Assembly (NCBI GenBank): GCA_013043685.1
Contig: JABDNT010000024.1
Coordinates: 1-64,000, forward strand
Origin: Flavobacteriaceae bacterium
GTDB taxonomy: Bacteria > Bacteroidota > Bacteroidia > Flavobacteriales > Flavobacteriaceae
Direction of reading: 5' to 3'
DNA length: 64,000 nt
The position numbers were made by a program, and so were the translations under genes. Position 1 is the stretch's first letter; the number at the start of each line of letters is the position of its first letter. Below are positions 39,372 to 60,408 of the stretch, one piece after another. The notes under the pieces were generated by a model that saw only the letters and a program-made list of their open reading frames with translations, made no database searches and was not told the DNA's origin.

Positions 39372-40571
39372 CTATAAATGCAGTTTTTCTGCAAATGAAG
39401 TCCGATCAATTGCGGCTTTCATGAATACAATACCGGAAGCCGTATACCCCATTTGGGTTTTACCATCAAGCCCAAAGTTTACAGCATCAATATATTCATT
39501 GAAGTCCCAGTTTTTGGCATCTTGAACTATTCGTTCGAATTCTGTAACAGAGTCTTTACTTGCATCGTTAAGGCCAATTTTTGTAAGTCCCATACAGAAT
39601 AGTCCCATCCATACCGGCCATATTCCACCATTATGGAAATATCCGGGCTTATTCTTGAAGTCGTAGGAATAATTACCTTGTAAGAGGTGCCAATCCGGGC
39701 TATTTTCTGTAATTGCCGGCCAGAATGCGGGGATTAAAGAATTGCCCAACCCTGCTTTTAGTTCGTCAATGAAAGAGCGTAATTCCTTTTTCTGAAAATC
39801 ATCAGTTCGGAGCAGAAGTAAGGCCAATGCATTGCCGGCCGCATCGAAACGCATATCGTAACAACCCGGCAGAATGAAGGCAGCATAATGTCCTGCATTT
39901 TTACTTATTGCCTTTCTATAGGCTCCCTGATGATATAACTTTTTTGCATTGGTTTGAGTTGAGGGCCAGAAATTACTACTGGTTTTTTCGATTAATTCAT
40001 TCAATGCATCCAAATTGCCACCACTGATCTTTATCCATAGTTTTTCACCCCAAATCCGAAGTAAGTTATCGTAGAGTGTATACCCATGAACGGGATATTC
40101 ATCGGCCCAGTTTCCGCTGAGCGGAGTATAGATCCAACCTTTGTCATTAAATTCCGTCGATTTTAAAAAGTACCTGCATTTATTAATGGCAGGTTGGAGA
40201 GTTTCCCAGGTCTGTGTGTCATTAGATTCGAGATAATATAAGCAACTACCAATGATAAACCAGGTATTCGCATCGATGCGTCCAACCAGGCTTCCGAACG
40301 AAACATCGCTATTTTCGCCAGGCAGAACGTTAGAAGGGATCATACCATGTTCATGCTGTTTACTGGCAAGTGTAAGCAGTGAGTTCTTTAAACCGTTTGT
40401 GATTGTCTCATCATCGAGTAACAATCCGGCTATCCCACATATAATGCTGTCTCTGGCCCAAACGCGCTTATAATTATCTGCTTCAATGGTACTTGCCAGG
40501 ATACCGTCAGGTGTTGTAAGCCTGTGCAACAAATTAACCGCTTCACCATGTATAGTTTGAAGCGATGTCAT
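39372..40571 (-). CDS. GH100/GH15-like (alpha/alpha)6-barrel glycosidase
   Basis: A 399-residue soluble protein with no signal peptide. The segment YKRVWARDSIICGIAGLLLDDE (about 31-52, split here by its RD motif) holds an Arg-Asp pair typical of six-hairpin glycosidases; WIYTPLSGNWADEYPVHGY and YFHNGGIWPVWMGLF follow the same fold. Best readings are an alkaline/neutral invertase (GH100) or an amylo-alpha-1,6-glucosidase-like enzyme. The nearby fructokinase and sucrose-type carrier favour sucrose hydrolysis. The assignment to a single family is tentative. It starts 1 base after the GH97 stop. Confidence 0.65.
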   Translation of the reverse strand: MTSLQTIHGEAVNLLHRLTTPDGILASTIEADNYKRVWARDSIICGIAGLLLDDETITNGLKNSLLTLASKQHEHGMIPSNVLPGENSDVSFGSLVGRIDANTWFIIGSCLYYLESNDTQTWETLQPAINKCRYFLKSTEFNDKGWIYTPLSGNWADEYPVHGYTLYDNLLRIWGEKLWIKISGGNLDALNELIEKTSSNFWPSTQTNAKKLYHQGAYRKAISKNAGHYAAFILPGCYDMRFDAAGNALALLLLRTDDFQKKELRSFIDELKAGLGNSLIPAFWPAITENSPDWHLLQGNYSYDFKNKPGYFHNGGIWPVWMGLFCMGLTKIGLNDASKDSVTEFERIVQDAKNWDFNEYIDAVNFGLDGKTQMGYTASGIVFMKAAIDRTSFAEKLHL

Positions 40572-42717: not shown

Positions 42718-43620
42718 TTATTTTTTTAAAGGTAAGAAAATATGAGCTTTCCATTTTCGCGGATCTCCACCTGTATGTGGATCGTTCAGATAAATCTCAA
42801 AAGGGAATTTTTCAACTTCTATTTTGTTTTTCTCTGCATACTCAATAAGATAATACCACGCATTATCTGAAATACGATAATTCCCATTGAATTCACCTTT
42901 TATTCCTTTTAATGCTTCGGTTGCTTTGAACTCAAGGGTGGGATGATACGGCATGGAATCTAACCGTTTAATTGGGAAACAAAAGTTAAAATTAATGGTT
43001 TCATCGTCCTCATTCCATTCCGTTATCTCCAGGAACGGGTCTCCATTCAAGGGGATATCGTTACCCTTTATATATTCCATGATGGACGATATGCCTTCCA
43101 ACATTGTTGTTGCTTTTTGGCGTACAGAAGATTTGAGAGGCAGAAATACACAATAGGTTGGTTGCACAACGGAATCTATAATACTGTGAAATTTGTACGC
43201 ATCAGCTTTTAATTTCTGAGCCTCTACTACTGTTTTTACATTTTCCACACTGCGTTTAATAAAGTCGTTCTTACCAAAAGGGACCATTAGCTTTTGAGCA
43301 AATTCATTCTTTTCATCCTTAATGTAGGCGGTCACCCTGGTTTTATCATCAGAAGATTTTTGTATTTCCCAGGTGTATAAAAAAGAAGAATCGGCAGATT
43401 GGACTCGTTGAAGAATCTCAGTATAGTTCTTTTTTGAAATGACTGAAATCTCAGCGTCACTTCGTTCGTAATTTTCCCAGTCCAGGATATGATGAAACAG
43501 CACTCCCATCGGTTGATCGCTGGTAAATGAAACCTGGTACTGATAATCTTTTACCAAGAAATACCATATACCCAGGCCGAGGACGCTAACGCCAAGTATC
43601 CACTTAAGCCATTGTTTCAT
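42718..43620 (-). CDS. Membrane-anchored SRPBCC/GyrI-like protein
   Basis: A 300-residue protein with one N-terminal membrane helix (about 5-22, ILGVSVLGLGIWYFLV), an SRPBCC/START-like segment (about 30-150) and a C-terminal GyrI-like effector-binding domain (about 155-300, ending EVEKFPFEIYLNDP). GyrI-like domains bind small hydrophobic or sugar-like ligands. It has no DNA-binding part, so it is not a regulator itself; the domain may sense or carry a ligand at the membrane. It lies between the haloperoxidase and GH97 genes, 1-10 bases from each. Confidence 0.75.
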   Translation of the reverse strand: MKQWLKWILGVSVLGLGIWYFLVKDYQYQVSFTSDQPMGVLFHHILDWENYERSDAEISVISKKNYTEILQRVQSADSSFLYTWEIQKSSDDKTRVTAYIKDEKNEFAQKLMVPFGKNDFIKRSVENVKTVVEAQKLKADAYKFHSIIDSVVQPTYCVFLPLKSSVRQKATTMLEGISSIMEYIKGNDIPLNGDPFLEITEWNEDDETINFNFCFPIKRLDSMPYHPTLEFKATEALKGIKGEFNGNYRISDNAWYYLIEYAEKNKIEVEKFPFEIYLNDPHTGGDPRKWKAHIFLPLKK

Positions 43621-43621
43621 G

Positions 43622-44947
43622 TTATTGCTTCATTTGGAGATTTTGAATCACCCATTGGCCTACCATCTGGCCCTGAGTAAGTCCTTCATCGATGGCAGCA
43701 CGGTAGTGAATCCCGCCATATAATCTGCTCACAGCTGCTTCTTCGGCTGCTTTATTAAATGAATCGAATCCTCGTACCGGTAGTCCGTAGGGTAATTCGG
43801 TATCATCCATAAAGCTGAAGTTGTCACCAAAGATTTCTGTTAATACAGTAGCAGCTGCTCCGGATACCACGGAGTGCCCACTCACATATTCTGGGAATGG
43901 GGGTGTTTGAAGGATAGGCTTCCAGTTTTCATCAATATATTGATTGATAAGGGTCTCCGGCCTGATTAGATTAGAACGGTATTTCTCATCCCAGCAGCTA
44001 ATAAAGGCATCGAACATTGCAATAGAACTTTTAGTATAGGCGTGCACTGTTCTGTTGAACTCAGCATCCGTGTCTTTGCAGGCTATTTCGGTAATTCCCA
44101 TCCAATGGGCTCCGGGTGTAATCTTTTTAGTAGCAAACATCAGATGGCCACGAGTAACTGATACGTAAGGATTGCAATCCCAGAATTGAGCGATCTCGAT
44201 TTCTTCAGACTCGTCTCCCTTTTTCGTAATTTCCTCGCTCACCTCGTATACCTCTTCAAGTTCCTTATAGAATTCACTATTTTTTTCCATCGAGAATGGC
44301 GGTGGTGGCTCAGGCTTGAACTGTGCTGCAGAATCAAGTACCAAAGGCCGTATCTTATTCCAGTGTGGCTCAATTCCATCCATATAAGCAGGAGGGGTAG
44401 GTTGCCAACGTGCCGGGTCATCAATATCCACGGTGAATTTCGACATCGTCCGGGTTTGTTTATAATTATCGGCATCGATCCATCTGTTCATATGATCCAC
44501 AACTTTCATGGCGTACTCCTTTGAGGCCTCAAATTCCAGGTTGTTTTTTTCACTCCAGGTGTTATTCAGGCTATCGCTGTAACTTGTCATCTTCTCTTCT
44601 GAAAAGACTAATGCCTTACTTAGATCCATATGAGCTATGAGTGCAGCCATAGGATAATTTACCAGGGAATCGGAAGTAGTTGGAATAGGTGTAAAATCGG
44701 TAATTTGTCCTGCTAAGCTTTTGTAATCAGGATCCACATGCGAGATGATCTCGTATGCGGCAATGTTCGGGTATACATAAATCCTGCTTGCCTGAGGAGG
44801 AGAGAAAATATCATGTATCATGATCTCTGTAACATGGTCCACTGCATTTTGATAATCTTCGGGAGTTATTTCAACAGGCACGAGTTCTTGTTTCTCCTGA
44901 CATGAATTCAGTAAAAATACAAGGAATAGAAAGGGTAGTATTCGCAT
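43622..44947 (-). CDS. Vanadium-dependent haloperoxidase-family (PAP2) lipoprotein
   Basis: The 441-residue product starts at the ATG at 44947, giving a lipoprotein leader (MRILPFLFLVFLLNSCQEK); the longer frame from 44992 would overlap the VCBS stop. All phosphate/vanadate-site residues are present with the haloperoxidase spacing: KYRSNLIRP (Lys then Arg seven residues on), PEYVSGHSVVSGAA (Ser-Gly-His) and SRLYGGIHYRAA (Arg then His six residues on). It is either a haloperoxidase or a PAP2-type phosphatase of this branch. Its place among sugar-uptake genes is unusual and favours an oxidative or dephosphorylating role at the surface. Confidence 0.85.
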   Translation of the reverse strand: MRILPFLFLVFLLNSCQEKQELVPVEITPEDYQNAVDHVTEIMIHDIFSPPQASRIYVYPNIAAYEIISHVDPDYKSLAGQITDFTPIPTTSDSLVNYPMAALIAHMDLSKALVFSEEKMTSYSDSLNNTWSEKNNLEFEASKEYAMKVVDHMNRWIDADNYKQTRTMSKFTVDIDDPARWQPTPPAYMDGIEPHWNKIRPLVLDSAAQFKPEPPPPFSMEKNSEFYKELEEVYEVSEEITKKGDESEEIEIAQFWDCNPYVSVTRGHLMFATKKITPGAHWMGITEIACKDTDAEFNRTVHAYTKSSIAMFDAFISCWDEKYRSNLIRPETLINQYIDENWKPILQTPPFPEYVSGHSVVSGAAATVLTEIFGDNFSFMDDTELPYGLPVRGFDSFNKAAEEAAVSRLYGGIHYRAAIDEGLTQGQMVGQWVIQNLQMKQ

Positions 44948-44957
44948 GGTGGTTGTG

Positions 44958-47900
44958 CTATCTTTTAATTTCATATACATCGACATCATCATTATTATTT
45001 ATTACTAACAGGTAAGGTTGGTTGTTATGACGGATCACTCTCAAATGTCTAACCGATTTCAGTGAGAGATCGATGCCAACTGTATGAGCCGACCTAATCT
45101 CTGTCTCACTGTCGATCAAGGCACCCGGGAAACTATCGTAACGCCCGTGAAAAGGAATAACGCCAAAATAATTTCCTCCTGCCAGCACACTTTCTTTGCC
45201 ATCTCCGTTGAAATCGAAACATTCAAAGGCCATTATAGGCGCCGTTTGCATTATTTCAGGAAACTCGGTAAAAATAAAGCTATTGTCCGTATTTCGCAAG
45301 AAACCAGAGGCCAGTGTATTGACTTCAAATTTTGTTGCCTTGGAAAGGGCTTCTTCTCCAAATATCTCTGTCATGGTTTTACCGGCAAAGGATTCGAAGG
45401 TGGTAAATTTCTTCCGGAGGAAATTCATCTGAGCCGACAGTTCATTTAAACCCATCAATGGATAATATTTTCCATTTTTAAAGGTTGCTACTACAGTTTC
45501 GGTTGTTCCATTTTCATCAAAATCATCGTAATACATTACCATGGGTGCGTTTTGGGAAGCCGTGAACTTAGAGTTAAGTCCCCAGTTTCCCAACAGGTAA
45601 TCGGTATCTCCGTCTTTGTCTATATCGAAAGGAATGATAGTTTGCCAGAGGCCGTTAAGAGGTAAATCGGTAAGGATATCTTCTATTAATTCGCCATCAT
45701 TGTTCCTGAAGAATTTTGGAGACATCCATTCGCCAACGACGATCAGGTCTTTATCACCGTCCTGGTCAAAATCGTTCCATACAGCATCGGTAACCATACC
45801 CAGATCTTCCAGTAGTTCCTGTTTTCCATCCGGATAATAGACCTTAGATGGCGGAATATTCCCAAAATCGTATCGAGTGGTATACCCTCCTTCGAATTTT
45901 AGAGTATCACCGTTTGTATCTTCGCTAACAAAGTATTGTGATGAATAGGAATCGGGCGAAGTGAAATCTACTGAATCGGGCATATTCTCATTTGAAGAAT
46001 CTTTTGTAAACCCTAATTTATTTTGTAAGAATAAAATTGCTTCTGCTTTAGTTCCTCCTCGAAAGAGTACATCCGTTAACGAATCATTGTTGCTATCCAA
46101 AGTCATCATTATCGGACCTCTGTCCGAGACTTTGTAGGGTATTAGTTTCTGATAATCGAAATCGTTGTTTTCAATATCCTGATGTCGGTAGTTCAAACCA
46201 AGATTACCATTTACTTTTTTAAATATGGGATCAATAGCAGGCTTTAAATATGAATAGGGCGCACTATTTTGAGGTGAAATGGTAAGTGTCTGGTTGGTCA
46301 TTACTTCGGAGAGTACCTGATAGGTGTTGTCCGGCCAAATGATCTTTAAGGAATCCACTTCGAGTATATCGTCCATTCCAAAATGGATAATCGGTTCACT
46401 GGATGCCTGCCATCCTCTGCACGGAAACAATTCCTTATATTGAAGAACACCATCATTCCAGGCTTCCACTTTCGATCCTATTCCGAACGAATTACCCTTT
46501 CGATAATCGAATCTGATCTTCAAATACCTGGCCTGGTCATTGGTTTTATTTATATAGAGGCCGGCAGGTTGGTTAATGTTATTGGTGACAATATCAAGGT
46601 CGCCGTCTCCATCCAGGTCTCCTATAGCGGTGGCTCCTGAAACCGTTGGATTTCCGGATATCCATTGTTCTGTTTTATTGGTGAATCCAATAGATGCGTT
46701 TCCTTTAAAGATATAATTTGATACGGCACCAGAGGGCATCATTTCCAATGCGCTTTGATCAATAAGCCGTTTCTCGTTAGCCCGGTTCTTTATTTTATCA
46801 CTTGAGACAAAGCGAATGAAATCCATATCATTAGGGCGTTTAGGTATTCCATTCGAAACGAATAGATCCTGTTCACCGTCCTGATCGAAATCACTAAACA
46901 GGGCGCTCCAACTCCAATCGGTGGCAGCAATCCCGCTTAGTAAGGCTGTTTCGGTGAATGGGTTATCATCCTGGTTGATATATAGCATATTACGTGTGTA
47001 CTGGAAATGATAACCGTATTGCTGGGTTCGCATTTCCAGGGTTTGGTATGTATCATCTCCTTCCGAAGATTTGAGCACCTTCTCATCTTCCGGAGACATG
47101 TCCAGAGAGATCAGGTCAGGAAGGCCGTCGTGGTTGATATCAGCAACATCATTCCCCATGGAGAACCGGGAGGTATGTCCGAAATACTTTCTAAGACTTT
47201 CTGTAAAAGTGCCATCTCCATTGTTAAGGTAGAAATAGTCGTCTTCGTGAAAATCATTCCCAACGTAGATATCGGGGTAACCATCCCTGTTGAAATCGGA
47301 AGTTGCCAGTCCTAATCCATAGGCATTAACACCACCGTAAATTCCTGCTTCCTCGCTTACATCGGTGAATGTATTTCCGTCATTTCGAAGAAGGCGATCA
47401 CCTGATTTTTCATTTCTCGTGTAACGAAGTTGAACCTTTCCGAAGGACTCTTCGGTATGGACGGCATGATTCAGGACATATACATCCAGGTCGCCATCCA
47501 GGTCATAATCGAAAAAGGAAGCAGTGGTGCCATAGGTAGCCAGGTCAAGTCCGAATTCGGCGGCACTTTCGGTAAAGGTATTGTCCTTGTTATTAATGAA
47601 TAGTTCATTGTGGCCTTTAAAACCATTTATTCCAACGACCGCTGTTACGTAGATATCCAACCAGCCATCACCGTTTACGTCGGCCATAACGGCACCGGTA
47701 TTCCAGGTACTGTTACCCCGAACTCCGGCAGATTGAGTAATGTCTTCGAATTCCAGGTTTCCTTTATTGAGATAGAGTTTGTTTTGCTCCTGGTTAGCAG
47801 AAAAATACAGATCGGGAAGGCCATCATTATTTATATCACCCATTGCGAGACCCCCGCCATTGTAGAAATACAGGTAGTCCAGTATGTTGAGTGAATCATT

Positions 47901-48056
47901 TTCAGTGAGCTTGTTCTCAAAATCCACTCCAGAACGAGAAGGTGTGCGTAGTTCAAATAAGAGATCGTTCTCACTGCAGCCACATAGCATTACCAGTAAG
48001 GCTAATCCGAAGAGATATTTATTGATTAATGCCAAAAACTCTGGGTTTTTCATCAT
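44958..48056 (-). CDS. VCBS/FG-GAP repeat lipoprotein with UnbV-ASPIC domain (copy 3)
   Basis: With the start at 48056 (MMKNPEFLAL) the protein has 1032 residues; a further ATG lies at 48053 and the longest frame starts at 48092. The leader ends GLALLVMLCGC (lipobox). The body holds FG-GAP/VCBS blades with calcium loops (DINNDGLPDLYF, DVNGDGWLDIYV, DYDLDGDLDVYV) forming beta-propellers, and an UnbV/ASPIC domain around residue 500 (FGIGSKVEAWNDG ... SLKIIWPDNTYQV). It is the smallest and most diverged of three tandem paralogues in this operon. The start overlaps the upstream copy's stop by 38 bp. A glycan-binding surface role is likely. Confidence 0.85.
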   Translation of the reverse strand: MMKNPEFLALINKYLFGLALLVMLCGCSENDLLFELRTPSRSGVDFENKLTENDSLNILDYLYFYNGGGLAMGDINNDGLPDLYFSANQEQNKLYLNKGNLEFEDITQSAGVRGNSTWNTGAVMADVNGDGWLDIYVTAVVGINGFKGHNELFINNKDNTFTESAAEFGLDLATYGTTASFFDYDLDGDLDVYVLNHAVHTEESFGKVQLRYTRNEKSGDRLLRNDGNTFTDVSEEAGIYGGVNAYGLGLATSDFNRDGYPDIYVGNDFHEDDYFYLNNGDGTFTESLRKYFGHTSRFSMGNDVADINHDGLPDLISLDMSPEDEKVLKSSEGDDTYQTLEMRTQQYGYHFQYTRNMLYINQDDNPFTETALLSGIAATDWSWSALFSDFDQDGEQDLFVSNGIPKRPNDMDFIRFVSSDKIKNRANEKRLIDQSALEMMPSGAVSNYIFKGNASIGFTNKTEQWISGNPTVSGATAIGDLDGDGDLDIVTNNINQPAGLYINKTNDQARYLKIRFDYRKGNSFGIGSKVEAWNDGVLQYKELFPCRGWQASSEPIIHFGMDDILEVDSLKIIWPDNTYQVLSEVMTNQTLTISPQNSAPYSYLKPAIDPIFKKVNGNLGLNYRHQDIENNDFDYQKLIPYKVSDRGPIMMTLDSNNDSLTDVLFRGGTKAEAILFLQNKLGFTKDSSNENMPDSVDFTSPDSYSSQYFVSEDTNGDTLKFEGGYTTRYDFGNIPPSKVYYPDGKQELLEDLGMVTDAVWNDFDQDGDKDLIVVGEWMSPKFFRNNDGELIEDILTDLPLNGLWQTIIPFDIDKDGDTDYLLGNWGLNSKFTASQNAPMVMYYDDFDENGTTETVVATFKNGKYYPLMGLNELSAQMNFLRKKFTTFESFAGKTMTEIFGEEALSKATKFEVNTLASGFLRNTDNSFIFTEFPEIMQTAPIMAFECFDFNGDGKESVLAGGNYFGVIPFHGRYDSFPGALIDSETEIRSAHTVGIDLSLKSVRHLRVIRHNNQPYLLVINNNDDVDVYEIKR

Positions 48057-51000
48057 TGATTGCCACGATAATATAGGCGTTACCTTCAGCATCTTTGAAT
48101 TGACGAATATGTTTTATTTCTTCTTTAATAAAAAATCCGCTGGTGTCATAATTCTGCCAATCGAAATTGAGGTTTCCGTCATTCAGCAACACTGAACCAT
48201 AATTTGCATCCAAACGTGAAAACTGAGGTTTTAACTCAAAATCATTTCCACCCATGATTATATCCAGGTTACCGTCATTATTCACGTCGGCACAGGTAAC
48301 ACCACAAACACAGGACAATTGTGCCTGTGCAGGAAGTTCAATAATATTAAATGAACCGTTACCATTGTTCACAGCGATTACAGTCGCGGAGGTATTTACT
48401 TCCTTGACCAGAGAATTTTGAATGGTACTTTCTGAAAACAATTCCTGAATGGATCTTATTGCAAATTCAGATGCTTTGAGGTTTTCTTTTTTTAGTGACA
48501 CCAATTGTCCAAGGATCTCCTTCTTCTGTTGAATCGGCATGTCCTTACCGTTTATTCTTTGCGTGATAATCTGTTCTATAGTACCGTTGTTGTCGAAGTC
48601 GTTGACCCACATTTTGATCACCCTATCATCGGATGGCTTGTAATGAAGATTCTTTCCCTCATTACCTAAAATGAAGTCCTGATCGCCATCATTATCGATA
48701 TCGACAGGGGAGATCACATTCCACCAGCCTTTTAACTTGTTCAGATCGGAATCCCGCCTCTCTAATTTGGAGTCCCGTACATTATAGATCTGTGGTGTAC
48801 CCCAATCCGATACAGTGATTAGTTCTTTTTGGGAATCTCCATCCACATCTATCCATTTAGCGTCTGTGATCATCCCGCCTCTCCTTAGGGCTCCTAAGGA
48901 TTCTTTCGCCGAATTGACAAAAGTACCATCTCCGTTGTTTTGCAGGTATATATGATTAGGATCTGCTCCGTATATTCCTATTATACTTCGCATTCCCACG
49001 AAGACATCTGTATCCCCATCACCATCCATATCATTGGGCGCTATTACCGAAACGTTATAGATGTTTGGGGGAAGATCCAGTATTTTTTTACTGAAGTTTC
49101 CTTTTCCGTCATTCAGGTAAAGTCTTATTCCTTCATTATTTTTTTCATCAACCTGATTTCCTCCTGAACCAACAATAAGATCCATATCACCGTCTCCATC
49201 GGCATCTAAAAATGATGCGGCTGTATCTTCGTTGAGCTTATCATCCTCAATTATTGAATTCTTGATTTTCCGAAGTTTGCCATTTCCGATATGGCTGTAG
49301 ACAATACCGGCTTGTTGTTTGGCACCACCTATAAAGACGTCTTCCAGGCCATCGTTATTTACATCACCGACAGCTATAGCTGGCCCTTCTTGTGACAACA
49401 TACGGGGAATTAGCCCTTCGAAGTCAAAATCGGAATAGGTATTCTCATCATGTTTTTCAACATCACTATTGTTAATTTCAGTGAGTATTGGTTGAATATC
49501 TTGAGAAGGTGAAATGTTATAAGTTTCTGTTGCCTCATTTTGCCTTAAAGATAGTACCTGATTTGCGGCAATGTCTTCAAGTTTGGTGGTGCGATTGTCT
49601 GGCCATATAACCCTAATGGAATCTATTGCATTTTCTTCACCCAATCCAATGGTCATGGGATATTCCACAGACGACTGGAAACCGCGAGATGGCATAAGCT
49701 CCTGGTATACGACATTATCTTTGAAATACAGCTTGACCGTAGTTCCAACAGCAAATTTGTTTGCACCCTCCCCTGTAAAATTCAGTTTTATATAGTTATT
49801 ATTGGTGGTTTCGCGGGTGTTATTTCTGTAAATAAACGACTCCATATTTACGTTATTCACAACCAGGTCAAGATCTCCATCGTTGTCCAGATCTCCATAA
49901 GCTGCACCATTGGAGTAACTTGGAGTACCCAGACCCCAGTCTTCGGCTTTGTTAGCAAAAGTAAGATCCCCATTGTTATGGTATGCAACATTGGATAATG
50001 GATACTGAGGCATTTTATCAATTATGGAATCGATTGCTTCTTTTCTTCCGGTGAGGGCCATATTCTGTATGATATCATTGGCGAAGAAGTCCATGAAATC
50101 AAGATCGGTAAGATCGTGGTTGATTCCATTGGTAACAAAGATATCCCGATAACCGTCGTTGTCCATGTCGAAAATGAGGGAGGACCAGCTCCAGTCAGTT
50201 GCCGATACCCCGCTAAAATATGCTATATCCGAAAACGTACCGTTTCCATTGTTCAATTGTAATGTGTTCTGAATATACTGTTGATAAAAATCCTTGCTCT
50301 GCTTCAGTTTAAACACGTTATATCCTTCAAACTCCATTACAGATTTCACGCGTTGCTCTTCTTTCGGCAGCATCTCTGTTACAAAGTAGTCGGCTTTGCC
50401 ATCGTTATTGATATCGGCAATATCAACACCCATTGCGGATAGGCTTAGATGAGACATCCAGTTCTTAATATCTTCTTTGAACGTGCCATCCTGATTATTT
50501 ATATAAAGATAATCACGTTCATAAAAATCGTTTGTGATGTAGATGTCAGGGTATAGGTCGCCATTAACATCGCTGATCGCAATTCCCAGTCCGAAACCAA
50601 TTAAGCTTCCAAAGATTCCCGCTTCTTCACTAACGTCTACGAAAGTACCGCCGTCGTTACGAAGCAACATATCGCCACTTCCTTTGATTGTCTCGGGAAT
50701 ATCCCAATCTTCAGCCCGTACGTCTCGCTGACGAGCATAGCCTAAAGTGTTCACCGGGATGTTACTATTATTGAGGATATATGCATCCAGGTCACCATCT
50801 TTGTCATAATCGAAAAAGCTGGAATGGATAGTAAATCCGCTTGCAGCGAGGTTAAAATCTTTTGCTTTTTCTGAAAAGGTTAGGTCTCCGTTATTGATAT
50901 ATAGATCGTTATCGTGGTTGTCTCCTTTTAAAAATCCCGCATGACTCACGTAAATATCCAATAATCCATCATTATTTATATCGGCCATAACAACACCAGT

Positions 51001-51360
51001 GGACCAGGGTTTAACACCTGCCACGCCTGCTGATTCTGTAATATCTTTAAACTTGAAATTCCCTTCATTCAGGAATAATTTATTCGCCCCCATATTCGCT
51101 GTCATATAGATATCTGCTAAACCGTCATTATTGATATCCCCGATAGCAACACCACCCCCATTATAGAAATTTCGATAATTGAATATGTTGAAATCCTTGC
51201 GGTTTTCCACAACATTCTTGAATAGTATATTCGTTTCTTCGGCGGAAAGCTTTGAGAATAAAGTTTGAGTCGTCAGGTCTTCCTCTTTCGATCCAGAACT
51301 GCAGGTCAAAAACATGGAACTAAGAAAAATAACAAGGCTATATTTTAAAAGATTCATCAA
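48019..51360 (-). CDS. VCBS/FG-GAP repeat lipoprotein with UnbV-ASPIC domain (copy 2)
   Basis: A 1113-residue lipoprotein (leader LSSMFLTCSSGSK). It has the same layout as its neighbours: an N-terminal block with FNYRNFYNGGGVAIGDINND, tandem calcium-loop blades (DYDKDGDLDAYI, DMDNDGYRDIFV, DLDNDGDLDLVV) and an UnbV/ASPIC segment (AVGTTVKLYFKDN ... SIRVIWPDNRTT). In the third quarter the blades continue with DVNNDGLEDVFI, DADGDGDMDLIV and DMDGDGDTDVFV. No catalytic site is seen. Its gene lies 10 bases behind copy 1, and the three genes together span about 9.7 kb. Confidence 0.87.
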   Translation of the reverse strand: MMNLLKYSLVIFLSSMFLTCSSGSKEEDLTTQTLFSKLSAEETNILFKNVVENRKDFNIFNYRNFYNGGGVAIGDINNDGLADIYMTANMGANKLFLNEGNFKFKDITESAGVAGVKPWSTGVVMADINNDGLLDIYVSHAGFLKGDNHDNDLYINNGDLTFSEKAKDFNLAASGFTIHSSFFDYDKDGDLDAYILNNSNIPVNTLGYARQRDVRAEDWDIPETIKGSGDMLLRNDGGTFVDVSEEAGIFGSLIGFGLGIAISDVNGDLYPDIYITNDFYERDYLYINNQDGTFKEDIKNWMSHLSLSAMGVDIADINNDGKADYFVTEMLPKEEQRVKSVMEFEGYNVFKLKQSKDFYQQYIQNTLQLNNGNGTFSDIAYFSGVSATDWSWSSLIFDMDNDGYRDIFVTNGINHDLTDLDFMDFFANDIIQNMALTGRKEAIDSIIDKMPQYPLSNVAYHNNGDLTFANKAEDWGLGTPSYSNGAAYGDLDNDGDLDLVVNNVNMESFIYRNNTRETTNNNYIKLNFTGEGANKFAVGTTVKLYFKDNVVYQELMPSRGFQSSVEYPMTIGLGEENAIDSIRVIWPDNRTTKLEDIAANQVLSLRQNEATETYNISPSQDIQPILTEINNSDVEKHDENTYSDFDFEGLIPRMLSQEGPAIAVGDVNNDGLEDVFIGGAKQQAGIVYSHIGNGKLRKIKNSIIEDDKLNEDTAASFLDADGDGDMDLIVGSGGNQVDEKNNEGIRLYLNDGKGNFSKKILDLPPNIYNVSVIAPNDMDGDGDTDVFVGMRSIIGIYGADPNHIYLQNNGDGTFVNSAKESLGALRRGGMITDAKWIDVDGDSQKELITVSDWGTPQIYNVRDSKLERRDSDLNKLKGWWNVISPVDIDNDGDQDFILGNEGKNLHYKPSDDRVIKMWVNDFDNNGTIEQIITQRINGKDMPIQQKKEILGQLVSLKKENLKASEFAIRSIQELFSESTIQNSLVKEVNTSATVIAVNNGNGSFNIIELPAQAQLSCVCGVTCADVNNDGNLDIIMGGNDFELKPQFSRLDANYGSVLLNDGNLNFDWQNYDTSGFFIKEEIKHIRQFKDAEGNAYIIVAINDEKPRVFGINQ

Positions 51361-51370
51361 ATTTATCTTT

Positions 51371-54300
51371 TTATTTTTTGATCTTTAAGAAAACAGGTTG
51401 ATCGTTGTTTCGGGCGATTAAAAGGTATTTATCATCTTGGTAATTCAAGAATTCAATATCGCGGCTAGCGCCTGGAATATCAAAAAACCGGGTATCTGCT
51501 TCCTTGAATTTTCCATTTGATTCGTTCAGCAAAAGTAACCCATGCGAGGCGTCTAATCTACTTAATTGCGTACTAATTTCAAAATTGTTGCCCACCAGCA
51601 GGAGGTCCTTTTTTCCGTCTTTATTAAAGTCGGAAACAGCAATATCATTCACGGTAGAGATCTGTGCTTTAAACGGTAGGTCGTATTGTTTAAAAGTATA
51701 ATCTCCCAGGTTTTCGAAATACGAACTTTTCAGGATATACACTTCTTTTTTATTGGCGTTTTGGAGTATTTCTTCCGAGAAAAGTGAGTTAATATCGGCA
51801 TTGGCAAAATCTGCATAAGACAAAAAGTTCTTATTGATCCCAGGTAGTTGTTTCACCAGTTCATCCTTGGAAGCGAGCGTAGTTTCCTCTCCTTGATAAA
51901 AATAGGTTATAATAGTTTCGTCCTGGCCATTATCATTAGCATCCACAGAGTACAATCTCAATGGTTCTTCAATATTTGCCTGGAGACGTGAATTGGCCCC
52001 CCAATTCCCCGCAACGATATCTAAATCGCCATCATCGTCAAAATCGGCAGCCTTAACGACGTTCCATAATCCATTTGTGTTTTCCAGGCCATTGTCTTTC
52101 TGAAGCGTCAATTGTTTTCCGTCATTCATAAAAACAGAGACAGGCATCCAATCCCCACCAACAATCAGGTCTTGAAAGGAATCGCCGTTAAGGTCGATCC
52201 AATATTGTGATGTACAGTTGCCTAAAAAAGTCAATTCCGGAGCAAAACTGGAGGTGATGTTCGTGAACTGTCCATTACCGTCATTTTCGAAGATAAATTG
52301 CTGTGGCGTGCGTCCAAACTGATGTGGTAGTGTATTAGACAATAGGCAAATATCAAGATCACCATCATTATCTATATCGACCGATTTTACGTCGGAACCG
52401 TTGACAGCCACTTTGAATTGGGTGTCATCTTTCCTGAAGACTCCTTTATTGTTCATATATAAACGAGGGTAGAGTGGTGCTCCGCTCAAAAATTCATTCC
52501 CACCGCTAAGAATTATAAGATCCGGATATTCATCACCATTGGCATCAAAGAATTCCAGTGCAATATCTTCACTTAGGGCATCGCTCTCGAACAGGTCTTC
52601 CTGACTTGATGAAAAGGAGCCATCTTTTTGCTGCAGAAATAATTGCGAAGGCTGTCCCTTGGCCCCACCTACAACAACATCCTCAAGGCCATCCTTATTT
52701 ATGTCGGCCACCGCTATGCCCGGACCTTCATTGGATGAGGCAAATGGAGTTAGTGGATTTCGGTTAAATTCGAGGCTTCGGTTTTCAGCATGTTTGAAAC
52801 TAAATAGGGGATCAGCCTGGACTAAGACCGATGAACTTTTTAATTGATTTTGCTCGTAATAGTTTCCTTGTGCATTTCTTTGTTGAAACGTATACATTTG
52901 ACTAGCTTTCAACTTATAATGGGTTTCGAAAGTCTTATCAGGCCAGACGATCTTCAACGAATCGATTTCGGATATTTCTCCCAGTCCGAAATGAACTATT
53001 GGGGCAGTTGCTGAAAGATAACCCCGGGTTGTGAAATTTTCTTTCACCATTTTATGGCCGTCTGAATATATCTCGATCCTGCTTCCAATACCAAATTTAT
53101 TGGCATTTCTGCCTTCAAGTTTTACCGAAACGAAATTGGCAGCAGCTGTTTTTCCTAAGGTATTCTCCAGAACCATCGCCGGTTCATTAATATTATTGAC
53201 TACAATATCGAGATCACCATCGTTGTCCAGGTCGGCATAAACGGCACCATTGCTAAAGGTAGCAGAAATCGATGCCCATGTATTGTTCATCGGCTCAAAT
53301 TCGCTGTTTCCCATATTCCTGAAAAAATAATTTACCTCTTTTTTAGCAGGGATTTTTTCTATAAATGCCATGGCTTTCTCATCCATACCCTGTCCTAGAG
53401 ATTTTTGAATACTCTCATTAGCGATGAAATTGATGAAATCCATGTCGTTGGTTGCCCCTGGAATTCCATTACTGATAAAGAGATCATTAAGTCCGTCGTT
53501 GTCGTAATCACCAATTAAAGGGCTCCATGACCATTCGGTGGCGGCGATCCCGCTTAAATAACCTGTTTCGCTAAAAGTTTCATTACCATTATTCAGGTGA
53601 AGGGTATTCTGCATGTATTGATAGGAATAGCCATTCTGAATATAATTCTGATAGATTTGATAGTTGAATTCGGTTCCAGAAGTCTTATAAGTGACGAGGT
53701 CCTCCGGTAACATATCCACGGATATGATATCTGTATTGCCATCATTATTAATATCGGCAATATCGTTTCCCATGGAGTAATGTGTGGTATGTCCTATTGC
53801 ATGGGTGTTTTTTTGAATAATTTCGTCGAAAGTCTTATCACCCCGGTTTATATAGAGATAGTCGTTCTCGTAGAAATCATTTCCAATATAAAGATCGGGA
53901 TAGCCATCATTGTTTAGGTCACTTACGGAAATTCCAAGTCCATAACCAATTTTACTCTGGATGATCCCCGCATCTTCGGAAACATCGGCGAAACGGCCAT
54001 TTTTATTTTCGAATAATTTATCTCCCGATTGAAGATCAGGAATAAAGCGTTTTTCTCCCTTGCCATAATTCAGATTTGGATTTACGGAATGGTTCATTAG
54101 GAACATATCGAGATCGCCATCCAAATCATAATCAAAAAATGCAGCCTGAGTCGAGAAACCTTTGAATTCAAGACCGTATGAAGCAGCATCCTCCACGAAT
54201 TTAGGGATACCGTTTTTGTCAGGGCCTTGATTGATATACAGCAAGTTTTTACCTTGAATAGCATGGTAATCACCCACTTTACAAACATAAATATCCATAA

Positions 54301-54679
54301 GGCCATCGTGGTTGATATCCACGGTGGTGACTCCGGTTGTCCAGTTGCCGGCATTATTTATTCCAGCATCTGAAGTGACGTCTTCGAATTTGAATTCGCG
54401 TGTATTAATGTAGAGTTTATCGGCGGTTTGATTTCCTGTAAAATATAGATCAATTAAACCATCATTATTAAAATCACTTGCAGCAACTCCGCCGCCGTTG
54501 TAGTAATATATATAATTAAGGATATTTAGCTCGGGGGTTGATATTAGTTTATTCTGAAAGTAAATGCCTGTTTCTTCGGGAGATTTTTGGAGGAATAGGG
54601 TATCGGTTTGTTCTTCTTCACAACTAAGAGATACAAGTTGCATCAGGATTAGAAACAGTATTCCCAGCGCTGGTTTCAT
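51371..54679 (-). CDS. VCBS/FG-GAP repeat lipoprotein with UnbV-ASPIC domain (copy 1)
   Basis: With the start at 54679 the protein has 1102 residues and a lipoprotein leader (MKPALGILFLILMQLVSLSC). The longest frame begins at 54811 inside the terminator loop, which cannot be translated normally; an ATG at 54733 is a weaker alternative. The blades (DFNNDGLIDLYF, DINHDGLMDIYV, DYDLDGDLDMFL, DYDNDGLNDLFI) and the UnbV/ASPIC segment (FGIGSRIEIYSDG ... SLKIVWPDKTFE) match the other copies. It is the first gene of the long minus-strand run that ends with GH100, and has its own promoter behind the SusD terminator. Confidence 0.87.
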   Translation of the reverse strand: MKPALGILFLILMQLVSLSCEEEQTDTLFLQKSPEETGIYFQNKLISTPELNILNYIYYYNGGGVAASDFNNDGLIDLYFTGNQTADKLYINTREFKFEDVTSDAGINNAGNWTTGVTTVDINHDGLMDIYVCKVGDYHAIQGKNLLYINQGPDKNGIPKFVEDAASYGLEFKGFSTQAAFFDYDLDGDLDMFLMNHSVNPNLNYGKGEKRFIPDLQSGDKLFENKNGRFADVSEDAGIIQSKIGYGLGISVSDLNNDGYPDLYIGNDFYENDYLYINRGDKTFDEIIQKNTHAIGHTTHYSMGNDIADINNDGNTDIISVDMLPEDLVTYKTSGTEFNYQIYQNYIQNGYSYQYMQNTLHLNNGNETFSETGYLSGIAATEWSWSPLIGDYDNDGLNDLFISNGIPGATNDMDFINFIANESIQKSLGQGMDEKAMAFIEKIPAKKEVNYFFRNMGNSEFEPMNNTWASISATFSNGAVYADLDNDGDLDIVVNNINEPAMVLENTLGKTAAANFVSVKLEGRNANKFGIGSRIEIYSDGHKMVKENFTTRGYLSATAPIVHFGLGEISEIDSLKIVWPDKTFETHYKLKASQMYTFQQRNAQGNYYEQNQLKSSSVLVQADPLFSFKHAENRSLEFNRNPLTPFASSNEGPGIAVADINKDGLEDVVVGGAKGQPSQLFLQQKDGSFSSSQEDLFESDALSEDIALEFFDANGDEYPDLIILSGGNEFLSGAPLYPRLYMNNKGVFRKDDTQFKVAVNGSDVKSVDIDNDGDLDICLLSNTLPHQFGRTPQQFIFENDGNGQFTNITSSFAPELTFLGNCTSQYWIDLNGDSFQDLIVGGDWMPVSVFMNDGKQLTLQKDNGLENTNGLWNVVKAADFDDDGDLDIVAGNWGANSRLQANIEEPLRLYSVDANDNGQDETIITYFYQGEETTLASKDELVKQLPGINKNFLSYADFANADINSLFSEEILQNANKKEVYILKSSYFENLGDYTFKQYDLPFKAQISTVNDIAVSDFNKDGKKDLLLVGNNFEISTQLSRLDASHGLLLLNESNGKFKEADTRFFDIPGASRDIEFLNYQDDKYLLIARNNDQPVFLKIKK

Positions 54680-54848: not shown

Positions 54849-56423
54849 TTAGTAACCCTCGTTCTGAACTAAGTTTGGATTAGAAAGAAGTGCGTTAACT
54901 GGAATAGGATAAAGATTTCTAAAATCAGCTCCTACAGATTCCGGATTTTTGAATTCCCAGTCTCTGGTGAATTGACCGAAACGAATAAGGTCATTTCTTC
55001 TCCAGAATTCATAATAAAGTTCACGTCCTCTTTCCGCTAGAAGGTCAGATTCAGTTACCGTACCAATCGCTGATGCATTTCTCAAGGCTCTAAGTTCGTT
55101 AACCATTGCCGTAGCATCACCGCCCATTCGAAGCATGGCTTCAGCTTTCATAAGGTGGGCATCCGAATAACGGAACATGATCTCATGGTTTCTGAATGAT
55201 CCTCCGTCATTAGGAGAGGGGTGGTACTTAATAATACGAATTCCACTCTCTTCAGGATTACCGGATAGACCAGGCAATTCCTTTGAGAATATTAATGGGG
55301 ATCCACCTCTGTTATTAAGTGGTACACCACTAGCGCTATATTGCTGTCCGATTAGGAATCCATACCCAATACCAAGGTTATCATCATCGGCATTAGTTGC
55401 ATCTGGAACCCATCCTCGTCTTTCATCTATACCGTCACCTTCGTAATTTGAATTAGGATCACCTTCGAATGAATCATAAAATTCAGCTAGGGTGCTAAAT
55501 CCATTCCAGCCACCACCTGCATTATCAGGAGCGACCTGGTTATAATGAAGACCATTCCACATCCTGTTACCAGGCGCGGTATTCAGGTACCAAATAGTCT
55601 CATTATCCACATCCGGCTTAAATAGATCGAAGAAGCCTCCTTGAAGAGCAAATCCATCGGCAGTGATAGCGTCAACGGCATCAACAACTGCTTGCATGTC
55701 TGCATTATCAAAACCACCTGAACCTTTATATCTGCCAGCATTTAAACGAAGTTTAGCGAATAAATAATTAGCAGCCGCACGGTTCGCACGGTTGTTATCA
55801 TCGCTAGGTCCCCTAACAGGAAGTACATTTTTAGCCGCATTCAGATCTTCTAAAATAAAAGCATATGCTTCAGCAGAACTTAAAACACGAGGATCTACAT
55901 CAGCACCTTCGTCAACTTCTCTAAATGGAGCAACTCCCCACATGTCCAAAACAAAGAACATACTAAATGCCCGAAGGAATTGAGCTTCGGCTTTTTGCTC
56001 TGCATTTGGAGCACTTCTGTCATCGATAATCTGTGTAGCCCGGAACACATTCTGATTTAGATTGTTCCAAGAGTTCAGAATGTATTCATGAGTCGCACCC
56101 CAGGTGTGAGCGTGAAGCTGTCGCCAGATCCCGTTATCACCCCAGTCTGTTCCTCTTGTTGGAACTAAGGTCTCATCGGTCGATACTTCTTGCAAGGCAA
56201 AGAAGTTCGCCTGGTCACCTAGTTGACCATAAACGTCATTGTACAATTGCGTCAACGACGCGTCAACATCTGCTACTCCATCAAAAATCCCTGAAGACTC
56301 TTCAGTGATAATGGAGTCTGTTTCTTCCAATGATAGATCTGTACATGAAACTGCAACCAGTGCAATCATCACCATCGATACGATTGGAAATAATTTAAAT
56401 TTTAGTGTTTTTTTCATAATCAT
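54849..56423 (-). CDS. SusD/RagB-family outer-membrane glycan-binding lipoprotein
   Basis: A 524-residue lipoprotein (lipobox VAVSC, Cys27 from the ATG at 56423; a second ATG lies at 56417). It has the SusD fold with TPR-like helices (QKAEAQFLRAFSMFFVLDMWG, NRANRAAANYLFAKLRLNAGRY) and the C-terminal family segments EIMFRYSDAHLMKAEAMLRM and LLAERGRELYYEFWRRNDLIRFG, with FRNLYPIPVNAL at the end. It caps the SusC channel at the cell surface and binds the incoming oligosaccharide. It follows SusC after 6 bases. Confidence 0.93.
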   Translation of the reverse strand: MIMKKTLKFKLFPIVSMVMIALVAVSCTDLSLEETDSIITEESSGIFDGVADVDASLTQLYNDVYGQLGDQANFFALQEVSTDETLVPTRGTDWGDNGIWRQLHAHTWGATHEYILNSWNNLNQNVFRATQIIDDRSAPNAEQKAEAQFLRAFSMFFVLDMWGVAPFREVDEGADVDPRVLSSAEAYAFILEDLNAAKNVLPVRGPSDDNNRANRAAANYLFAKLRLNAGRYKGSGGFDNADMQAVVDAVDAITADGFALQGGFFDLFKPDVDNETIWYLNTAPGNRMWNGLHYNQVAPDNAGGGWNGFSTLAEFYDSFEGDPNSNYEGDGIDERRGWVPDATNADDDNLGIGYGFLIGQQYSASGVPLNNRGGSPLIFSKELPGLSGNPEESGIRIIKYHPSPNDGGSFRNHEIMFRYSDAHLMKAEAMLRMGGDATAMVNELRALRNASAIGTVTESDLLAERGRELYYEFWRRNDLIRFGQFTRDWEFKNPESVGADFRNLYPIPVNALLSNPNLVQNEGY

Positions 56424-56429: not shown

Positions 56430-59400
56430 TTAAAATTGTGCATTTAATCCTAATGTAAAAGTACGAGGTCTTGGAAAGGATGTATAGTCAATACCGGCTA
56501 TTGGAAGGCCGTTTAGCAAGTCATCACCACCAGGTGAAACACTAACTTCAGGATCAAGACCAGAATAATCTGTGATCACGAATAGGTTCTGTCCTGTAAG
56601 CGATAGCCCTAAACTAGACAAGAAAGCGTCTTCTTTCAATGGCCATGCATAGCTTAATGTGGCGTTCTGCATCCTTACGAAGTCACCTTTTTCAAGGAAT
56701 CGTGTAGATACTTCAGCCGCTGCTGTTAATGCTTCTCCGGTACTTAAAACATTTAATGGAACGTTTCTACCTCCATTAAAGGCTCCAGCCGTTTGTAAAG
56801 CATTCTCAGTGTTGTTGTATATATAGTGTCCAAACTGTCCTGCAAGGAACGTGGATAGCGACCAGTTCTTGTAGCTAACAGAGGTTGAAAAACCACCGGT
56901 AATGTCCGGAAGTGCACTCTTATCAACAAACTTCTGAATATCTTCCTGGATAGGCTGACCATCGGAATCAAATCCTTCGAACTCACGTAAGAAGAATGAG
57001 AACAACGGTTGTCCTTCCTGAAGTTTTTGAGCAAAGGCACCTGTTAAGCCTTGACCACGAATAGTACCGGCATTGTATTCACCTGCCAGCTGATCGATCA
57101 GGTTTTCGTTGTAAGCGATGTTGAAGCTGGCATTCCAGGTCCAGTCATCCGTTTCAACGATATCGTAACCTAGCGCAAATTCAATACCCTGGTTAGTAAC
57201 CTTAGAATCAGGTAAGTTCAGGAAAATAAACGGTTGAACCGCAGGTTGTGCAGATTGTACACGGAAAAGAAGGTCTGTCGTTTCTTTAAGATAAACGTCC
57301 ACGCTTCCATATAAGCGGTCATCATTAAACCCAAAGTCAAGACCCACAGCATATTGTAAGGTCTCCTCCCATTTCAATTCAGGATTCGGGAAAGCCACAC
57401 CAACAATTCCAGGTATGTTTATACTTCCTCCGTCATCGATTGGGTCACCACCCGAGTAACGCTCTCGGTTCACAAATTCACCATATCCAAGTCCTTCCTG
57501 GTTACCAGTAATACCTACTCCTAAACGTAGTTTAAGTGTAGAAACAGAATCACCAATAAAATCTTCATTGTTGATCTTCCATGCAAAAGCTCCTGACGGG
57601 AAGTAACCGTATTGGTTGTCTTCACCAAATCGAGAGGAACCATCCGCTCTCATTGTTGCAGTAAACAAATACTTATCTGCGAGAGTAAAGTTGATCCTTC
57701 CGAAGAAAGACTGAAGTTCGGTAGTGTTATCAAAAGTATCAACAAAAAGTGAATTAACTCCTAATCCATTGAATACAGGTAAAAAGTCTGTCATTGGTTC
57801 AGGAAACAAGCGATTGATAAAGATTCCCTCAGAAATATTACCCGCATATCCATATTGTTGGTAGCTACCATCAATTCTGGATTCAATAAGATCTGCCGTT
57901 CTCAAGAGTTCTCTAGCCATTCTATTCATGTCATCCGTAAAGAATCCATATCCAAGAATATTTCGTCCTGATCTTTGGAAGTCCTGGAAGGAATAACCTA
58001 CTAATACATCTAAACTTGAATTGGTAAAATCCTTATCGTACTGCAATGTAGTTTCAAGAAGTTTACTTTCAGTATCAAGTTCGTTGATCGCTCCTAATCC
58101 ATTTCCAAAGGCTCCCTGATCGAAGTTTCTCGCATTGGGAGAAGTTATCGCATCACGTGAAGATTCTGAATTGTCATATCCAAGATTTACCTTCGCGGAA
58201 AAATCATTTGTTATATCGTACTCCGCTGAGAAGTTCACAAGATATCTGTTTGTGAAGCTCAAATTCTGAGTATACTCTTTAATAGTAGAAGGGCTCAATT
58301 GATTCCCAGTATTAAAATCTGGACCAGTCGGCCAGGTTGGATTAGCTGAAATCGCCGCACCAATAAGGTCTCCTCTAAATCCTGCACTACCACTCAAAGG
58401 AGCAGTTTCGTCATTAACTCGGGAGATAGTCCCCTGAAGTCCTAGTTTTAATTTTCCATCGAAGAAACGCTGATTTGCATTCAATCGTCCGGTTATTCTT
58501 TCAAGCTCGGAATTTACTACAACCCCATTTTGTTTATTATATCCGAAGGTCGCTCTTACATTACCACCTGTGTAACTTTGGGAGTACGAAAGGTTGCTGC
58601 TTGAGGAAGCGGATGTTCTAAAGATTTCGTCCTGCCAGTCTGTGCTACTTCTGAAGTCTCTCTCGGATACATTAAATCCAAGACGCTCACTCTCAGACAA
58701 ATACTGATCGGCGGTCATTACGTCATAATATTCAGGTACGGTTGAAAGACTCACGTTCGAAGAAAAATCCCATACACCACCGGTTGATCCTTTACCAGAT
58801 TTAGTGGTAATGATAACAACACCATTCGCACCACGTGAACCGTAGATAGCGGTAGCGGAAGCATCCTTGAGTATACTGATACTTTCGATATCATTCGGAT
58901 TCAGGAAAGCTAATGGGTTTTTGGCTGAGGATGATCCCAGACCAACATTAGTTCCTTCAGCGGCTGTCGATTCACCAGACAACGGAATACCGTCGATTAC
59001 AAATAACGGGTTGTTGTTGGATCGTACAGAGTTCGCACCACGAATACGGATATCAACACCCGCACCTGGCTCACCACTGCTCTGGGAGATTTGCACCCCG
59101 GCAGTTTTACCTTGAATTAATTGTTCCGGGGATGAGATAACACCCTGGTTAAAGTCTTCAGAGGTAACAGCAGCTACCGAACCGGTCGCATCTCTAACTG
59201 TTGTAGTACCGTATCCAATTACGACAACTTCGCCTAAAGCTTCAATGTCTTCCTGAAGAATTACATTAATAGTCGATTGCCCACTTACGGCAACTTCCTG
59301 AGTAGTGTAACCTATGTAACTGAATACAAGTGTTGCATTTGAGTCTACATCATCAATAGTGTAATTACCATCGAAATCAGACTGTGCTCCGTTGGAGGTG

Positions 59401-59543: not shown

Positions 59544-59579
59544 TTAGTTCCTAGTTTAAAGTTAATTTTCAATTAATAA

Positions 59580-60071: not shown

Positions 60072-60217
60072 TCTGGCCAAATTGTCCTTGCTTAAAATTG
60101 CTAACACTTAAATTAACAATGATCTTAATTTGTTAAAAATTTAACGGATGAGCATCAAACCACGAATTTCCATTATTTTTTTCAATTTTGTAATAAATCG
60201 ATTCCAAAATAGTGAAA

Positions 60218-60247
60218 TTAATAACCGAAAACGTTTTCGATTATTAA
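60218..60247. promoter_or_regulatory. LacI-type operator: 30-bp near-perfect palindrome
   Basis: The perfect 14-base core CGAAAACGTTTTCG (60226-60239) is extended on both sides, so 14 of 15 base pairs match over 60218-60247; only 60225/60240 fail. A central CG with A/T-rich arms is typical of LacI-family sites. It lies 162 bases upstream of the LacI ATG and about 675 bases upstream of the SusC start, so it could serve autoregulation and repression of SusCD. Confidence 0.7.
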
Positions 60248-60305
60248 GTGCTAATCACATGGGTTGTATAAAAAAACATTGTACTTTAGGCATTAGAAAT
60301 AATTA

Positions 60306-60324: not shown

Positions 60325-60355
60325 ACTTTCAGGTAGCGAATAAGAATCTTACACC

Positions 60356-60377: not shown

Positions 60378-60408
60378 AATATCACAAAAGGGAAATACTT
60401 CAGAAATT

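Follow-up and report, generated by a model that had tools for sequence, protein, structure and literature searches.

A conserved flavobacterial operon associates three orthologous lineages of predicted propeller lipoproteins with a SusCD importer and a probable iodoperoxidase

A stretch of 64,000 nucleotides, hereafter the window, was analysed; it represents the first 64 kb of contig C51 (JABDNT010000024.1) of a Flavobacteriaceae bacterium whose genome (3.0 Mb) is 97.7% complete. On its minus strand, three tandem genes encoding large FG-GAP/ASPIC lipoproteins, referred to, in order of transcription, as A3 (51371-54679), A2 (48019-51360), and A1 (44958-48056), are located between the genes of a SusCD importer, whose SusD gene adjoins A3, and the gene of a PAP2/vanadium-dependent haloperoxidase (43622-44992, minus strand), which adjoins A1. 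The computational analysis disclosed a conserved operon in which the three copies belong to three distinct orthologue lineages and the haloperoxidase is, both by orthology and by its motifs, the counterpart of the Zobellia iodoperoxidase, as well as a common operator. The reading that we prefer, with a probability of roughly 0.42, is that the propeller proteins join one SusCD lineage to the iodoperoxidase in a sugar-induced surface complex.

A profile of the three copies was searched in 40 genomes (the window's own and its relatives), 17 of which gave matches at 1e-60; among 119 Flavobacteriaceae genomes, one per genus, at least 71 gave matches at 1e-200, with up to six candidates scored per genome. 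A FastTree phylogeny was then constructed on 180 family members of at least 950 amino acids (aa), retrieved from 100 stretches, the window, and two further stretches of its own genome. The analysis of this tree revealed three clades corresponding to gene position, each with support 100 (A3, 27 tips; A2, 36; A1, 39). The mean identity within a clade is 56-66% (at most 200 sampled pairs, some of them from the same genus), against 35-38% between the copies of one genome. Since the copies cluster by position and not by genome, a recent or genus-specific triplication was rejected; the preliminary description had supposed that one such protein was expanded three times, and the copies are instead old positional orthologue groups.

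The gene order is also conserved. The contiguous arrangement A3-A2-A1-peroxidase was found in 23 loci of 19 genera, and the SusD gene is the next one upstream in 18 of them, other genes intervening in L047, L098, L102, L110, and L123. The copy most often missing is A3, which is lacking in 11 genera that have A2-A1-peroxidase. In two genera, A3 and A1 do not have A2 between them; a further family match is located upstream, at a distance of about 8 kb in G105 and 13 kb in G122. The pair formed by A1 and the peroxidase is present in at least 34 of the 119 genera, and A1 adjoins a haloperoxidase gene in 38 of the 39 A1-clade tips, so that its closest partner is the iodoperoxidase and not the sugar genes. 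Locus L124 has A1 without the peroxidase; in L055 and L062, A1 and the peroxidase occur without A2, A3, or SusCD within the 20-kb stretch. Downstream of the peroxidase, a GyrI-like gene follows directly in 34 of the 36 type A loci whose stretch extends there, its product perhaps binding or clearing a product. Within the genus of the window, G003 is the only one of seven members lacking the triple. A second type of triple was also recognised, with a gene of 189-204 aa between the first two copies in 10/10 fetched loci and with clades of its own, positions 1 and 2 joining A2 and position 3 joining A3 (support 84).

Two side observations concern these arrangements. In loci of the second triple type, the first two family genes are separated by a gene of about 187-224 aa, as seen in L065, L079, L128-L135, and many named loci, ranging from Flavobacteriaceae to metagenome-assembled genomes (MAGs) labelled Bacteroidales; a lipobox was seen in the two products read by eye, and the one scanned gave no Pfam match. 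In L122 (and, judging from gene lengths, in L121, L140, and L199), the displaced A2-like gene is separated from A3-A1 by a block encoding an alkanesulfonate-monooxygenase-like protein, a sodium/solute symporter family (SSF) transporter, and a SorA-like sulfite dehydrogenase, both enzymes scoring under the NCBIfam cut-offs; the block is possibly a sulfonate locus inserted in the cassette.

The partner of A1 could be assigned with some precision. The window haloperoxidase matches the Zobellia vanadium haloperoxidase 4cit/4usz with 688 bits and 67% identity, and the motifs KX6RP, SGH, and SRxYGGIH (SRX5H) are kept in it and in 40/40 full-length rows, looser vanadate patterns being found in 93/98 rows of the wider set (this count, like the 33/142 loci and the 43 sites given below, includes a few twice-fetched loci, e.g., L203/L241, L139/L239, L141/L240, and L114/L147). 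It is an orthologue of the Zobellia iodoperoxidase 4cit, and, from this orthology, iodide would be its real substrate. Fournier is said to have reported in 2014 that the Zobellia enzyme is specific for iodide only. The G007 enzyme is 98.4% identical to 4cit over 435 residues and is encoded directly after A3-A2-A1 and before the GyrI-like gene; because of this match in the same gene order, it is very probable that an operon of this kind is the origin of the crystallised enzyme.

Most loci had been fetched for their ASPIC match, and the adjacency of peroxidase and family genes counted on them (88/101 rows) is therefore biased. In order to lessen this bias, the 119-genus draw was searched with the peroxidase only (1e-90), which gave 52 places in 50 genomes; 45 of the 52 peroxidases lie directly beside a family gene, including G060 and G063, where this gene is downstream, and G076 and G137, where it is a contig-end fragment, and this is the count to be preferred. 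In a draw across the phylum, 32 of 148 genomes have a peroxidase homologue at 1e-70. Among the named loci, which are the best 80 of more than 547 in the genome scan, the order SusC-SusD-(one to four family genes)-peroxidase was found, for example, in Pontibacter, Chryseolinea, Algoriphagus, Larkinella, Belliella, and Spirosoma; Pontibacter and Chryseolinea belong to the Cytophagales, where the SusCD-propeller-peroxidase unit thus recurs.

The tandem of three FG-GAP/ASPIC lipoproteins between SusCD and the haloperoxidase, as first described, was confirmed by the open reading frames (ORFs; 1,032-1,113 aa), by Pfam, and by the lipobox. A1 has 1032 aa from the ATG at 48056, A2 has 1113 aa, and A3 has 1102 aa from the ATG preceding the signal peptide, the longest A3 ORF opening with TTG at 54811. 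The ORFs of A2/A1 and A1/peroxidase overlap by 35-38 bp and just 10 bp separate A3 from A2, suggesting that A3-A2-A1-peroxidase are likely to form one transcription unit. The full-length proteins share pairwise identities of 35, 36, and 38%, and the columns diagnostic of the single lineages (95% conserved in one group, less than 10% elsewhere) are 29, 23, and 17. The copies contain 7, 10, and 9 FG-GAP_3 stretches, together with FG-GAP and UnbV_ASPIC domains, all well above the Pfam cut-offs (PF07593, 66.7-75.6 bits vs. 23.4; PF13517, 193.6-242.2 vs. 26.9). A lipobox was read by eye in each of them (CGC/SEND, LTC/SSGSKEED, and LSC/EEEQTD) and is predicted in 302 of 337 family members, most of which are accordingly predicted lipoproteins, as the preliminary description had it for the three copies.

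The AlphaFold2 models of A2 (mean predicted local distance difference test, pLDDT, 90.9; predicted template-modelling score, pTM, 0.91) and A1 (87.7 and 0.90, with residues 688-708 below pLDDT 50) bear out the architecture of an integrin-like propeller followed by the ASPIC domain. The best PDB match of A2 is CRTAC1 (9etn; Z 39.2, 460 aligned residues, root-mean-square deviation, rmsd, 2.5), to which A1 is similarly close (Z 37.8, 458 aligned, rmsd 2.4); the match spans the N-terminal propeller and the ASPIC domain, and the next-best one scores about Z 31. The same 9etn chain is the top-scoring solved structure by sequence too, with both parts matched. The C-terminal half of A2 (about 620-1113) superposes on many single propellers. 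About 10-11 DxD/NxDG motifs occur in each protein, which makes calcium binding by the propellers likely. As for A1, its length is 1032 aa in the window, G004, and G006, whereas two other members of the genus, G005 and G001, encode an A1 of 1080-1087 aa; the shortfall of 48-55 residues corresponds, in the alignment gap, to about one blade of the C-terminal propeller.

The importer shows a similar conservation. In a tree of 65 SusCs of at least 850 aa, those of type A loci group in a single clade across the sugar contexts (29 tips, support 100), and their sister group consists of the SusCs of the second type (9 tips; support 94 for the two jointly). In the window, SusC (56430-59543; TIGR04056, 667 bits) and SusD (an outer-membrane lipoprotein, 54849-56423; PF07980) open a minus-strand array of 33.5-59.5 kb in which the three propeller genes and the peroxidase are followed by the genes for the GyrI-like small-molecule-binding protein (42718-43620; PF06445, with an N-terminal hydrophobic stretch) and, on the basis of domain matches, for a GH97 glycosidase (40572-42707; GH, glycoside hydrolase family), a GH100-like (invertase-like) glycosidase (39372-40571), two major facilitator superfamily (MFS) transporters (36348-39220), a GH37 trehalase (34483-36351), and a PfkB sugar kinase (33537-34514); a LacI-family regulator, identified in the same way, is divergent (60409-61425, plus strand). 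SusCD, a regulator, and carbohydrate enzymes are therefore all present together. Elsewhere in the genome, the ASPIC domain was matched in a full-length gene on C61 and in a 540-aa gene on C58; in the whole genome, including the window, only two places match SusD (PF07980), one of them partially. GH97, GH100-like, and GH37 are the only glycosidases of the window operon, the latter two without a signal peptide by eye; since Pfam disclosed no exported polymer depolymerase other than GH97 in it, this appears to be a small-sugar rather than a polysaccharide locus.

The catabolic neighbours of the cassette differ from locus to locus: they may be of the alpha-glucoside type (GH97, GH100-like, GH37, GH13, GH65), of the xylose type (a xylose isomerase scoring 680 vs. 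the NCBIfam cut-off of 533 bits, and a xylulokinase-like kinase that remains below its own cut-off, 287 vs. 380), or of the glycerol type (a major intrinsic protein (MIP) channel, a flavin adenine dinucleotide-dependent glycerophosphate-oxidase-like protein, and an FGGY kinase). The same propellers thus accompany different small sugars, which disfavours the earlier suggestion that the three copies exist in order to recognise different glycan parts. The proposed association with SusCD proved to be general, a SusD gene being found upstream (with at most one gene between) for 28 of 51 family members outside the cassettes and for 104 of 155 members of the named-genome set (again the best 80 of more than 547 loci); the refuting condition that the preliminary description had set for itself therefore gives a mixed result, single copies being common and the co-occurrence with SusCD being strong.

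An alternative that is possible, though rather doubtful, and that the preliminary description had raised, would see A1-A3 as surface lectins placed in the SusE/SusF slot and widening the catch of SusCD, with the iodoperoxidase as an independent passenger. The family does occupy the slot after SusD in most loci, including many single copies without the peroxidase, and its lipoprotein signals agree with such a role, for which BtuG, a surface lipoprotein stably complexed with a TonB-dependent transporter (PMC10404256), provides a precedent; however, one orthologue set serving alpha-glucosides, xylose, and glycerol, an operon whose exported polymer-cutting enzymes are limited to GH97, three proteins in which Pfam recognises no carbohydrate-binding module, and an A1 that accompanies the peroxidase where SusCD is not nearby (L055, L062) speak against it.

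Coming back to the sugar-induced surface complex, its regulation would depend on the 14-bp perfect palindrome CGAAAACGTTTTCG (60226-60239), a predicted LacI-type operator that a motif search disclosed between the LacI and SusC genes. Within the 1 kb preceding SusC, this operator or one of its variants was found in 33 of the 142 loci that have several copies or a peroxidase, and in 0 of the 49 single-copy loci; overall, 43 sites were found in 3.67 Mb, vs. 0 in five Markov shuffles. Out of 18 rows with the perfect form, 13 have alpha-glucoside genes and none has xylose genes; out of 14 rows with the C form, three have xylose genes and none has alpha-glucoside genes. In the window, a second match (39342, two mismatches) is near chance (2 in total vs. 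0.31 expected; two matches are reached by 2/100 shuffles). The distance of the operator from SusC is about 650-690 nt in the genus members seen, vs. about 100-400 nt in many other loci. The leader between them (59544-60239) contains a frame (59580-60107; 167-183 codons) whose product shares 29-44% identity among genus members, over partial to full length; the frame may be a small gene, or the region a long regulatory leader. Scanning 59400-60450 against Rfam yielded a single match, far under the gathering score.

The window's own genome harbours two perfect copies of the operator and seven sites with one mismatch, vs. one for the reversed control. The second perfect copy is located between two divergent operons, one comprising a glucose-methanol-choline (GMC) oxidoreductase, a gluconate-2-dehydrogenase subunit 3 with a twin-arginine-like signal, and a TIM-barrel protein, the other a TIM-barrel protein, an MFS transporter, and a Gfo/Idh/MocA oxidoreductase, which we take to be a glucoside oxidation pathway; the GMC flavoenzyme probably oxidises sugars. 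In 20 other genomes, 38 perfect sites were found, vs. 6 of the reversed pattern. Considering these together with the window's own, the perfect operator precedes a GMC gene in 10 of 21 genomes belonging to five genera (in G002 and G004 by coordinates only), and in the same 10 genomes it is likewise found before a SusC adjoining LacI, this SusC being that of the cassette in eight; in G002 and G004, the operator-bearing SusC is on a different contig from the propellers. The operator was found only at other genes in G066, G115, and G141, and nowhere in G003, G119, and G142; G003 has the GMC gene without it. The GMC gene is not specific to the cassette, since 22/22 genomes searched carry a homologue. 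Other perfect sites were noticed near the start of a family-like gene that the stretch truncates (1029 aa; a 145-aa frame intervenes) in G099 (L278), and near the start of a 521-aa family-like gene (G054, L269), so that other propeller genes may belong to the operator regulon; a third site occurs in four genomes (L270, L272, L275, L283) beside genes of about 380-399 and 159-160 aa.

From these data, we infer LacI regulation at the operator, a surface complex, the docking of the peroxidase, and a source of H2O2, as follows. In the presence of a simple glucoside, or perhaps of xylose or glycerol in the sister loci, the LacI-type regulator would permit the expression of the operon, in the order SusCD importer, A3, A2, A1, and iodoperoxidase. 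A lipoprotein nature is predicted for SusD, the propellers, and the peroxidase, and the three calcium-stabilised double beta-propellers would form a fixed set, one unit with SusCD and the iodoperoxidase: A3 and A2 might sit on SusCD as large accessory subunits, for capture or as a lid, and A1 might dock the iodoperoxidase. In this way, the uptake of sugar at the surface would be coupled to the H2O2-dependent oxidation of iodide, and the GMC flavoenzyme, putatively exported by the twin-arginine translocation (TAT) pathway and sharing the same operator, could feed or accompany the peroxidase.

Several observations weigh against this reading. A separate clade of 48 tips consists mostly of single copies without a peroxidase in the cassette manner, so that the family is more commonly partnered by SusCD than by the peroxidase. 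Seven of the 52 peroxidases do not adjoin a family gene: three have one within about 8 kb (G017, G024, G077), G056:C163 lies at a contig end, and in G126, G041, and the second G044 copy no family gene is present in the fetched stretch. The signal for surface export is weak, positions +2 to +9 containing 1.73 D/E residues vs. 1.17 expected and 3.01 in SusD. No operator form lies within 1 kb of SusC in 109 of the 142 multi-copy or peroxidase loci, many of these 109 being other groups or cut stretches, and five genomes have the operator at the cassette and not at the GMC gene (G120, G087, G054, G044, G080); the best matches of the GMC enzyme are dehydrogenases, pyranose oxidase being matched more weakly. 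Finally, the Arenibacter sp. ARW7G5Y1 locus (LacI-SusC-SusD-SSF-A2-A1-peroxidase-GyrI) lacks A3, has an SSF gene between SusD and A2, and belongs to a strain other than C-21, the one considered next.

The iodine uptake of Arenibacter C-21 requires glucose, O2, and Ca2+, and a membrane-bound glucose oxidase acting with a haloperoxidase was proposed for it (PMC5064120). This physiology fits the preferred surface complex, and the match with the operon, whose genes are known from another Arenibacter strain, is suggestive. A bolder version of the complex, which at present seems unlikely, would be a dedicated, sugar-switched iodide-oxidising surface apparatus in which SusCD would import glucosides, the TAT-exported GMC enzyme under the same operator would oxidise sugar and yield H2O2, and the three calcium-dependent double propellers would hold the iodoperoxidase on the importer, as the genetic basis of such iodine uptake in marine Flavobacteriaceae. 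If such an apparatus existed, it would represent a widespread way for Bacteroidota to couple feeding to halogen chemistry.

It is also improbable that the operon is a protection module, in which the iodoperoxidase would destroy, with iodide, the H2O2 of algal defence during feeding on exudates, the propellers being adhesins or armour co-transcribed for life on algae. A Zobellia iodoperoxidase, vIPO3, was upregulated on Ascophyllum nodosum, and detoxification of reactive oxygen species was part of the response to fresh algae (PMC9296495); FG-GAP repeats in marine flavobacteria have been interpreted as adhesion domains (PMC2668756). Against this, adhesion needs no fixed positional orthologues tied to SusCD, and a locus with SusC, SusD, a gene of the propeller family, and the peroxidase also occurs in a groundwater MAG (L201). 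That at least one propeller protein is a sugar-modifying enzyme, such as an oxidase making H2O2 for the peroxidase, is very improbable: the near-universal residues not involved in calcium sites (e.g., W390-S-W392, H637, E711, and Q952) and the structural similarity to the aldos-2-ulose dehydratase propeller (4a7k, Z 28.8 and 27.2) would fit it, but many other propellers score alike (Z about 24-31), that dehydratase is absent from the matches of the PDB sequence search, and Pfam discloses no cofactor-binding domain.

The ordered set described here, with the sugar-induced surface complex as its preferred interpretation, points to a link between sugar uptake and iodine chemistry: in at least 34 of 119 flavobacterial genera, and in related form in the Cytophagales, a large lipoprotein family is tied to an iodoperoxidase and a single SusCD lineage. 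If the interpretation is true, it would provide the genes for the iodine uptake needing glucose, O2, and calcium that was reported in 2007 in a marine flavobacterium, and would link marine sugar turnover to the iodine cycle. A SusCD-propeller operon built around an iodoperoxidase was not found described in the open-access literature searched.

As regards known systems, Bacteroidota import glycans mainly through SusCD systems, whose known accessory proteins are of SusE/SusF type, surface glycan-binding proteins of polysaccharide utilisation loci. The A1-A3 family shares with the latter the gene slot after SusD, the lipoprotein nature, and co-transcription, and differs from them in its double propeller, its one to four copies per locus, its tie to a haloperoxidase in many loci, and its small-sugar contexts. 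BtuG likewise has a propeller fold. What is predicted for the present family resembles it in that BtuG is a surface lipoprotein stably bound to a TonB-dependent transporter (PMC10404256); BtuG differs in serving vitamin B12. Arenibacter C-21 displays the physiology that the module would give, and another strain of the genus has the operon; for C-21, no gene was named as responsible beyond at least five PAP2 homologues, and the proposed glucose oxidase was left without an assigned gene (PMC5064120). The likeness to the Zobellia galactanivorans vanadium iodoperoxidase (4cit/4usz) consists of orthology and vanadate motifs shared with the haloperoxidase of the operon. With CRTAC1 (9etn, ASPIC/UnbV), the bacterial proteins have in common the N-terminal calcium propeller and the ASPIC domain, from which they are set apart by a lipoprotein signal and by a further propeller, about 490 residues long, at the C-terminal end. 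Taken singly, the Zobellia iodoperoxidase, SusCD loci, and CRTAC1-like domains are known; for their combination, the open-access literature searched gave no description.

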